Shown here one piece after another: positions 10,684-60,490 of a stretch of DNA of 64,000 nucleotides. A program made the translations under genes and the position numbers. The stretch's first letter is position 1, and every line of letters begins with the position of its first letter. Origin of the DNA: Peribacillus asahii (GTDB taxonomy: Bacteria; Bacillota; Bacilli; Bacillales; DSM-1321); NCBI RefSeq assembly GCF_004006295.1, contig NZ_CP026095.1:4245501-4309500 (forward strand). The letters run 5' to 3'. Under the pieces are notes generated by a model. It was not told the DNA's origin. It ran no database searches and saw only the letters and a program-made list of their open reading frames with translations.

Positions 10684-10867
10684 CCGATGGGGTAGAGGCT
10701 GCGGCTTATAAAAGTAGAACGAGTGAGATACAAGAATATCAATGACTTCGTTTAAAAGGATAAGTTGCCGAAGCAAGACGATTTTCTTGGGGTCATCTTG
10801 CTGGTGGTGTGACCGAATAGGCACATTACTGTCACGTTGCTGAAACAACGTGGGGAGCTATCTTCGG
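10684..10867 (+). promoter_or_regulatory. lysine riboswitch (L box)
   Basis: Conserved L-box blocks appear in order: GGTAGAGGCTGCG at the 5' end, AAAGGATAAGTTGCCGAAGC in the middle, TTGGGGTCATCTTGCTGGTGGTG, and GGGGAGCTATCTTCGG closing the P1 stem with CCGATGGGG. A strong terminator follows at 10891-10924 and then the permease gene, so the switch should stop transcription when lysine is bound. The upstream stretch 10440-10683 shows no gene. Confidence 0.92.
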
Positions 10868-10890
10868 AAGGATTACACGGGTTTATAGAA

Positions 10891-58456: not shown

Positions 58457-58687
58457 TTGTTTATATCTATAAATAAAAAAGAGGGTAAGGTAATCAAGAT
58501 TCCTATAAAAATTCCAGAAATATTTCTTTCCTCTTTAGAATTCAGAGGTAAAGATCTTGATGTTACATATAGAATAAATATGCACCACTCAATTTCCAAA
58601 CAATTGAAATTACAACCTAACTTTAATACAATAGATACAAACATACATTCTTTTTTTATATTTATTAAATTGAAGGGAGGAATATAA
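58457..58687 (+). CDS. possible small ORF before the LAGLIDADG gene
   Basis: A 76-codon frame (TTG start, no convincing ribosome binding site) ending ...KLKGGI. Its last codons form the GGGAGG ribosome site of the LAGLIDADG gene that begins one base after its stop, which could couple them. I see no known domain. It may be a real leader gene or chance. Confidence 0.25.
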   Translation: MFISINKKEGKVIKIPIKIPEIFLSSLEFRGKDLDVTYRINMHHSISKQLKLQPNFNTIDTNIHSFFIFIKLKGGI

Positions 58688-58688
58688 C

Positions 58689-59096
58689 ATAGAAAAGTGG
58701 GAAGCAGCATATATAGCAGGAATTATAGATGGAGAGGGTTCCATTACATTGACTAGAATGCATGAAGGTGAACACCGTCGGCCATGTATCACAGTTGCTT
58801 CAACTGACAAAGAACTATTAATTTATCTCCAATCTTTAACCGGTGGTACAATCAATAACAAAAAGAATTACAAGCCCGACCGGCATAAAGATTCCTTTAC
58901 ATTAACGATAAAGAAGAAAGAAAATGTCATGTTTATTTTAAAACATATTTCTCCCTATTTAAGAGTCGATAAAAAGAGAAAACGCTCTTTATGGATATTA
59001 GAACACTATGAAAAGGTAACTCTGAGGAATGGAAAATATAGTCCAGAATTATTAAAAGCTAAACTATCATTTGAAGAGTTATTCTTTCAAATATAA
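58689..59096 (+). CDS. single-motif LAGLIDADG homing endonuclease (ATA start)
   Basis: About 135 residues. The N-terminal motif AAYIAGIIDGEGSITLTR is a clear LAGLIDADG helix; the rest (VASTDKELLIYLQSLTGGTI, KDSFTLTIKKKENVMFILK, LRVDKKRKRSLWILEHYEK) matches the beta-sheet saddle and second half of single-motif enzymes, which act as homodimers. The frame has no ATG/GTG/TTG before the motif; GGGAGG is followed eight bases later by ATA at 58689. The first ATG (58749) would delete the motif. It is outside the tmRNA intron, 150 bp past the tmRNA 3' end, on the opposite strand. Confidence 0.82.
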   Translation: MEKWEAAYIAGIIDGEGSITLTRMHEGEHRRPCITVASTDKELLIYLQSLTGGTINNKKNYKPDRHKDSFTLTIKKKENVMFILKHISPYLRVDKKRKRSLWILEHYEKVTLRNGKYSPELLKAKLSFEELFFQI

Positions 59097-59225: not shown

Positions 59226-59255
59226 AATAAAAACCACCAAATATGTATTTGGTGG
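59226..59255 (-). terminator. terminator of ssrA
   Basis: Minus strand CCACCAAATA-CA-TATTTGGTGG followed by TTTTTATTTTG; a perfect 10-bp stem whose 5' arm includes the encoded CCA end of the tmRNA. Confidence 0.85.
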
Positions 59256-59895
59256 AGACGGTGGGACGTGCTATTCCATGCTTTCGTCATGGCACTGACT
59301 ATATCTTGAACCTGTAATTAATTATTCAGGTCCTCTGGCGTATTATGCGAAATATAAATTTACTAAACAGAAGTAGTATTCCGCATCCTAGTACTACCAT
59401 TTTCAAATGGTAGCCTATAAGTCGATACACGGCTGTTGGATTGCTCCACATACCGCTCGGCATTGCCTTATCGCAATAAATGCGAGGTAGGTTTCACCGA
59501 TAAAGCCAGATTTTCACTTGCATGTTACCATACAAGGCGACTATTTACTAATCGAACCCACGTCCAGACATAACGGCACTTAAGCTTCTACGAGTGTAGT
59601 CGACATATTCATGTTTCACTTACTCATTTGCCTGTCGACAGGCGTCTGAGCAGCTAGTCTGATTGTTCTCTTCCTTCATCCTCAGACGGTGGAATCCGGC
59701 GTAGCCCACTTAGAGTGAGTCCCTGACCCTACCACATGGGCAATGGAGGGAGGAACAGCTATCGACTGTTATTAAGCAGCGAAAGCTAAGTTGTTGTTTT
59801 GTTTGCCAGTTATAGGCTTTGACGTTTTAACGAGGCCGATCCCCTCGACTCGCAACCTAAGCTCGAACTATCCCTGTCGAATCCGTAACGTCCCC
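59250..59895 (-). ncRNA. ssrA: tmRNA (ssrA), split by a group I intron
   Basis: Transfer-messenger RNA for ribosome rescue. The 5' end GGGGACGTTACGGATTCGACAGGG and the 3' exon TCCCACCGTCTCCACCA form the alanine-acceptor end (GGGGAC pairs with GTCTCC). The tag-coding frame starts at 59807 and reads GKQNNNLAFAA then TAA (59772), so the full tag is AGKQNNNLAFAA. The T-arm is interrupted at 59551/59550: exon 1 ends GTGGGTTCGAT and exon 2 begins TCCCAC, restoring a normal T-loop after excision. Without the intron the RNA is 362 nt, as in B. subtilis. smpB lies directly upstream on the same strand. Confidence 0.96.
59267..59550 (-). other. group I intron in the tmRNA T-loop
   Basis: 284 nt without ORF. 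Group I core signs on the minus strand: S-element AAGATATAGTC (59297-59307) whose UAUAGUC pairs with R-element GACTTATA (59416-59423) with one bulged U to form P7; the intron begins after U of exon CGAU, which pairs with GUCG at intron positions 10-13 (P1 with terminal U-G); the last intron base is G. These fit known rules for group I splicing. Precise secondary structure of P3-P8 and P9 was not worked out. Confidence 0.9.
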
Positions 59896-60022: not shown

Positions 60023-60490
60023 CTACATCTTTTGACGTTCGCGGAAAGCTCGTTCGATATCACGTTTTGCTTCTTTTTTCTTCAAGTCATCACGCTTATC
60101 GTATTGCTTCTTCCCTTTACCAAGCCCAATTAATATTTTAGCAAAACCGTTTTTTAAATATAATTTTAACGGAACAATCGTATAACCTGTTTCTTTCGTT
60201 TCACCAATTAGTTTATTAATTTCCTTGCGATGAAGCAATAGCTTTCTCGTTCGCAATGGATCATGATTATAACGATTTCCTTGCTCATACGGACTGACAT
60301 GCATGTTGTGCAAATATAATTCCCCGCGTTCAATTTTCGCAAAGGAATCCTTTAGATTCGCTTTGCCTGCTCGAATCGATTTAATTTCTGTTCCTTGAAG
60401 CACAATACCAGCTTCAAACGTATCTTCAATAAAATAATCATGATACGCTTTTTTATTTTGTGCTAGTTGCTTGCCCATTCCCTTTGGCAT
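60023..60490 (-). CDS. smpB: SsrA-binding protein SmpB
   Basis: A 155-residue RNA-binding protein that recruits tmRNA to stalled ribosomes. Family motifs are intact: [59 protein letters not shown] and a basic C-terminal tail ([20 protein letters not shown]), which inserts into the empty mRNA channel. It lies between rnr and ssrA, the standard order in Bacillaceae. Confidence 0.97.

Follow-up and report, generated by a model that had tools for sequence, protein, structure and literature searches.

The window analysed here, a 64,000-nucleotide (nt) stretch of the Peribacillus asahii genome (contig NZ_CP026095.1, positions 4,245,501 to 4,309,500), holds an ssrA gene, encoding transfer-messenger RNA (tmRNA), whose T-loop is split by a putative group I intron, and a free-standing gene for a likely LAGLIDADG homing endonuclease that faces ssrA from its downstream side. 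The preliminary description of this DNA reported the intron, which belongs to an already known class as far as the covered parts of a recent survey (PMC11915505) define it, and overlooked the neighbouring convergent gene, in which the greater interest of the locus lies.

A group I intron in the sole tmRNA gene

The insert follows the sixth base of the 7-base T-loop, and its excision leaves the joint TTCGAT/T, with the loop restored. The preliminary description had placed an interruption of 284 nt between U59551 and T59266, which is exact (insert 59550..59267, minus strand), and had called ssrA otherwise complete, which also holds: ARAGORN recognises a tmRNA, with the tag GKQNNNLAFAA, in the joined exons, and none in the unspliced gene or the window. 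A search with Rfam models, as the same description had suggested, gives 156.7 bits to the tmRNA model at ssrA, in an alignment that lacks the T-arm's 3′ half and the acceptor strand, and 36.0 bits (E 3.3e-7; 59560..59276) to Intron_gpI, below that model's gathering score of 50; in a search at Rfam cut-offs the intron at the ssrA insert stays unlisted. Across the whole genome (4.89 Mb), the tmRNA model returns 28 matches, among which the window ssrA alone exceeds the cut-off. It is the sole tmRNA gene of the genome at that threshold, ruling out there the intact second ssrA that had been considered as a counter-argument, and the cell presumably depends on splicing of the intron.

Helices P1–P9 with P5a, P6a, P7.1 and P7.2 were drawn from the window intron sequence, and pairs were then counted in an alignment of 52 distinct relatives, picked for diversity from 89 readable introns. 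The drawn fold pairs in 98.2% of 3383 cells, as against 92.3% in shuffles and 30.5–37.2% in slid alignments, the slid control being one that flatters the fold, itself drawn from a member of the alignment. Both sides change at 37 of the 66 pairs, and none of 500 shuffles matches the observed value on any of five measures. Among the core helices, P3 (6 pairs) is 100% paired with both-side changes at 4 pairs, P4 is 99.6%, P6 100% and P8 98.5% paired, and the four pairs of P7, which the preliminary description had judged able to form, are 100% paired and invariant and so give no covariation evidence. The terminal features that it had noted are general as well: P1 has its U-G pair in 52 of 52 aligned introns, and all 89 readable relatives, 263–308 nt in length, have a U before the intron and a terminal G. 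The comparison thus upholds the core fold and supports the reading of the insert, which lies in the T-loop of the genome's only tmRNA gene, as a group I intron. By our mapping of the numbering used in the covered parts of PMC11915505, it falls in the position 7 class of tmRNA introns. One relative (locus L163, genome G188) has about 150 nt extra between the halves matched by the window intron, around P5; an endonuclease gene inside this intron was considered, and in six frames the extra segment reads as nothing recognisable as one.

As a blastn query, the window intron has relatives in 90 of the 397 genomes sampled from the order, spread over 39 of 135 genera; within the window's family, 4 of the 43 genomes searched carry it. 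Within a single genus the distribution is patchy, with the intron in 4 of 36 genomes. The closest relative among the sampled genomes, G009, has an intron 99% identical to that of the window. The covered parts of PMC11915505 report 883 unique intron-form tmRNA genes, all interrupted in the T-loop, mostly at position 7, and predominantly from Bacillota. The preliminary description was therefore right that the class is known; its judgement that such introns are rare does not hold in the sampled order, where they are not very rare.

Sixty intronless T-loops read TTCGACT (44), TTCGATT (13), TTCAATT (2) and TTCGAAT (1). We considered whether the base preceding the insertion site records the former presence of an intron and found it unreliable, as intronless ssrA genes with endonuclease remnants show either C (L165, L327, L041 and L315) or T (L232 and L329). 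Other copies of ssrA or its parts occur among the relatives: a decayed second copy of the intron 3′ end with exon 2 lies about 100 bp past ssrA at L080 (G114), a same-genus relative (L021, G016) has two intact tandem ssrA copies about 1.1 kb apart (391-735 and 1501-1845), and G287 has two tmRNA matches about 0.7 kb apart.

A convergent LAGLIDADG gene beside ssrA

The endonuclease gene lies outside the intron and is convergent with ssrA, 153 bp past the ssrA end and 174 bp past the intron end (Table 1). Its product gives Pfam LAGLIDADG matches of 29.5 and 26.4 bits, against cut-offs of 22.5 and 23.1, and has a single LAGLIDADG motif, whose aspartate, D13, is invariant (16 of 16). The predicted structure has the I-CreI fold, with the bI3 maturase also among the fold matches. 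The gene likely encodes an endonuclease of the I-CreI/I-MsoI type, which probably acts as a homodimer.

The gene is under purifying selection. Among 20 full-length genes, the ratio of amino acid-changing to silent divergence (dN/dS) has a median of 0.12 and a maximum of 0.31 over the 47 of 190 pairs with finite silent divergence, the other 143 being saturated and excluded; between the window gene and that of G009, dN is 0.003 and dS 0.123. The window gene has the rare apparent start codon ATA (58689-58691), yet its differences from the nearest relative are almost all silent.

The ORF upstream of ssrA is one that we take to be smpB from its sequence and position. Elsewhere in the window, riboswitches above Rfam cut-offs are found for lysine (10685-10868, plus strand), cobalamin (45535-45324, minus strand) and guanidine-I (14789-14688, minus strand).

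Table 1 Features of the ssrA locus, in window coordinates
Feature	Position	Strand	Remarks
Group I intron (supported by comparison)	59267..59550	−	284 nt; between T59551 (exon 1 end) and T59266 (exon 2 start); no endonuclease gene inside
Free-standing gene, likely LAGLIDADG homing endonuclease	58689..59096	+	uninterrupted; 135 residues from the apparent ATA start; stop 59094-59096
GGGAGG, likely ribosome-binding site	58675..58680	+	8 nt before the ATA codon; by eye from the sequence
ssrA (tmRNA) gene	59250..59895	−	extent as in the preliminary description; does not include the endonuclease gene (58689..59096)
ssrA exon 1	59551..59895	−	345 nt; spans the 5′ acceptor strand through U59551 of the T-loop; contains the tag frame GKQNNNLAFAA
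ssrA exon 2	59250..59266	−	17 nt; 3′ half of the T-arm, acceptor strand, CCA
Likely ssrA terminator	59229..59255	−	hairpin, then T run; between the two convergent genes; by eye from the sequence
smpB (presumed), protein partner of tmRNA	60023..60490	−	155-residue open reading frame (ORF) directly upstream of ssrA

Linkage of the gene to the intron in the order

In the 397 genomes of the order, the endonuclease protein has matches in 54, comprising 47 of the 90 intron carriers and 7 of the 307 other genomes (Fisher p 2e-28, a value that is uncorrected for kinship and, as the genomes are related, overstates their independence). The gene lies 50–1177 bp past the intron end in 39 of these 47 carriers, on the opposite strand in every one. 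A second search, with 20 queries over 1.5 kb downstream, counted as full-length any copy that aligns with the window protein over 110 stop-free residues. It finds the gene or pieces of it in 41 of the 90 carriers, always opposite to ssrA, with 20 copies full-length and the other 21 incomplete or broken. As a control, 60 intronless ssrA genes were hand-picked from the top listed ssrA matches; their flanks contain one short remnant (G208) and no intact gene. Among viral contigs, eight stretches fit a search pattern and none is a relative, the single-sequence query being one that detects close relatives only.

Linkage in named genomes and the wider phylum

A protein-alignment scan of species genomes gave 202 relatives of the endonuclease, of which the best 80 were compared. 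In 69 of these 80 the intron lies 40–622 bp from the gene and is convergent with it. The other 11 include ten whose genomes have the intron elsewhere, so that 79 of the 80 genomes carry it; in the 80th, Gracilibacillus timonensis, ssrA is uninterrupted and the endonuclease lacks the LAGLIDADG stretch and contains a stop. Among these best 80 copies, 68 are stop-free over at least 120 residues, all in intron carriers, and six close copies that lie right beside an uninterrupted ssrA (G033, G208, G384, G544, G595 and L315) are all broken or remnants.

Beyond the order, a phylum sample of 329 genomes contains six with the endonuclease family. Two of them, G000 and G081, belong to the order and carry the intron, followed downstream by the gene or a remnant. 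The other four lie outside the order, and in each a tmRNA gene adjoins a copy or a remnant: the adjoining gene of G644 contains an Intron_gpI match of 46.7 bits; that of G429 has an interrupted T-arm in which Intron_gpI does not reach E 1e-4; and G595 and G544 have broken remnants beside intact tmRNA genes. G429 also has a second broken copy about 6 kb off, beside which no tmRNA was matched. In the named set, intron and gene are likewise found in this arrangement in Lutispora saccharofermentans.

At the 53 of 80 named loci readable for endonuclease, intron and smpB (smpB-like proteins are present at 68 of the 80), the correlation between endonuclease and intron distances is 0.67. With smpB taken into account it is 0.48, a value as high as which is reached in 0 of 2000 permutations; correlations with smpB itself are 0.64 for the endonuclease and 0.57 for the intron. 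Two genomes of one genus differ in the gene: G124 and G229 are 99% identical from near the intron end through the terminator, after which G124 has about 540 bp containing the gene and G229 goes directly into a flank that is 88% alike. The endonuclease gene has thus been gained or lost on its own.

A proposed collaborative homing pair

We consider it likely that the free-standing LAGLIDADG gene and the ssrA intron form a collaborative homing pair, in which the endonuclease gives the intron its mobility. The group I ribozyme would remove itself from the tmRNA precursor and rejoin the T-arm to give tmRNA. The endonuclease would cut intronless ssrA genes at or near the T-loop insertion site, and repair of the break from carrier DNA would copy the intron, exon 2 and the endonuclease gene together, a tract of <900 bp in the window. 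As the intron splits the target, the carrier's own ssrA would be protected. The endonuclease may later decay, often leaving the intron alone.

The insertion site as target is supported, not proved, by the pattern of intact copies in carriers and broken ones beside intronless ssrA. With that target, an active enzyme next to an intronless ssrA would break the chromosome that encodes it; if the spacer were the target, intact copies would be expected beside intronless ssrA as well. A more distant LAGLIDADG family, described below, departs from this pattern, being uninterrupted over its matched stretch in three intronless genomes.

Several observations weigh against the proposed pair. I-CreI-type dimers bind even-centred sites, whereas a base lies at the centre of the T-stem repeat, and the sequence therefore does not reveal the target; the T-arm inverted repeat is an attractive dimer target, which we leave unclaimed for its odd centre. 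With ATA as its apparent start codon, in place of the ATG, TTG or GTG of most relatives, the window gene may be weakly expressed. In 49 of the 90 carriers no gene was found within the search range (in three of the 90 the contig ends within 530 bp), and the intron therefore persists without the gene. The gene is displaced in eight carriers: five have it elsewhere on the contig at a distance of 6 to 43 kb, one has it 454 kb away on the same strand, and two have it on another contig. No copy of the ssrA end within 3 mismatches was found beside the displaced genes. Islands moving the gene off ssrA, at which gaps of 29–43 kb in four genomes hint, would be a guess in view of that null result.

The samples add to these points. 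The named-genome set is a selection of best matches that overlaps partly with the order sample, and the control of 60 flanks understates remnants, as it was hand-picked, omits the 7 known intronless genomes with a match and includes one flank of 554 bp; the figure of 7 in 307 is free of this fault. Those seven comprise fragments (G384, G063 and G120), members of a distant family (G155, G299 and G358) and a weak match (G206, at 33% identity within a longer frame). The G384 fragment lies right beside ssrA; in G063 ssrA is on another contig; and in G120 an N-terminal fragment runs into an unrelated frame, 1.9 kb from an intact ssrA. The distant LAGLIDADG family is 34–41% identical to the window protein, uninterrupted over the matched stretch, and in G299 lies about 650 bp from an intact ssrA. 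It was set aside as another family, as no tmRNA was matched in the stretches around the G155 and G358 genes. Its members were located at L166 (1444-1863), L171 (1200-1664) and L168 (about 1017-1397).

Other readings of the linkage

That intron and gene were joined once in an ancestor and have since been inherited and lost, with no present mobility, is unlikely. Both do partly follow host relatedness, as the smpB correlations show, and many gene copies are decayed, as such a history would have it; against it stand the partial correlation of 0.48 that remains beyond smpB, the patchiness of the intron within one genus (4 of 36) and purifying selection on the gene. The intergenic position of the gene, which is where free-standing homing genes are generally said to insert in the covered part of PMC13405050, and its presence or absence while the intron stays, would fit an ordinary free-standing homing gene that targets an intergenic spot downstream of ssrA, with the intron an incidental neighbour. 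A gene of this sort would shield its own site and should be uninterrupted beside intronless ssrA too, whereas 79 of the best 80 copies are in carriers, the 80th is broken and the six beside uninterrupted ssrA are broken or remnants, and we regard such a neighbour as improbable, with perhaps slightly less in its favour than a single ancestral joining.

LAGLIDADG maturases exist, and a gene tied to an intron, with the bI3 maturase among its fold matches, might encode a splicing helper and not a mobility enzyme. The 49 of 90 carriers with no gene found nearby speak against this, as do the single alignment in which introns with and without the gene share the same core fold and the invariant LAGLIDADG aspartate, which together make a maturase very improbable. 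A non-working intron in a dead ssrA, finally, is scarcely credible: the Intron_gpI score does fall under the Rfam cut-off, and against this stand compensatory changes at 37 of 66 pairs, correct ends in 89 of 89 introns, and a tag frame and tmRNA fold that are intact on joining.

The collaborative homing pair proposed above may also have a wider role, in which we place about even confidence. A single dedicated LAGLIDADG family, free-standing just downstream of ssrA, would spread many of the tmRNA introns in Bacillales and a number of those in other Bacillota. It forms, on this view, an addiction-like pair with the intron: on loss of the intron the enzyme would cut the cell's own ssrA, and the intron would act as the antidote. 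If true, such a pairing would account for the scarcity of internal endonucleases in tmRNA introns.

Comparison with known systems

The genes for I-CreI and I-MsoI lie within group I introns that interrupt algal rRNA genes. The window gene differs from them in lying outside its intron and in being convergent with the host gene, and a dedicated endonuclease is easily overlooked in such a position.

The window intron shares with the published position 7 tmRNA introns, as presented in the covered parts of PMC11915505, the gene, the T-loop, the U before the insert and the terminal G. Lengths are similar, with a mean of 293 bp for the 843 founding introns of that survey and 263–308 nt for the 89 copies here. 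The survey counts endonuclease genes internal to introns, which it finds in 36 of the 883 tmRNA introns as against 54% of archaeal rRNA introns; a free-standing neighbour of ssrA goes unmentioned in the parts covered. So few internal endonucleases leave open how tmRNA introns spread, and an adjacent endonuclease would answer this for Bacillales. Among the listed open-access titles and abstract openings we found none reporting linkage of a tmRNA intron to a free-standing endonuclease, and older subscription work could hold one. On that coverage, the free-standing LAGLIDADG partner would be the new part and the intron a known class.

Collaborative homing has been described for two phages, according to the covered part of PMC3984707: in cyanophages, a free-standing endonuclease acts with the intron of psbA, and another phage provides the second example. 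Similar to these phage systems (PMC3984707; F-CphI, PMC6083498, each as far as covered), the ssrA pair combines an intron without a gene and a free-standing endonuclease, the cleavage site being the insertion site there and proposed to be so here. If the proposed reading is true, collaborative homing, so far described in two phages, extends to dozens of species of bacteria, and the pair would give a testable intermediate in the making of mobile introns, with a separate enzyme first and an intron-internal enzyme later. The systems differ in that cutting was shown for the phage systems and is predicted here, and in that F-CphI is not a LAGLIDADG protein; as opposed to the phage cases, the ssrA pair resides in bacterial chromosomes, involves a structural RNA gene and a LAGLIDADG protein, and is found in dozens of host species.
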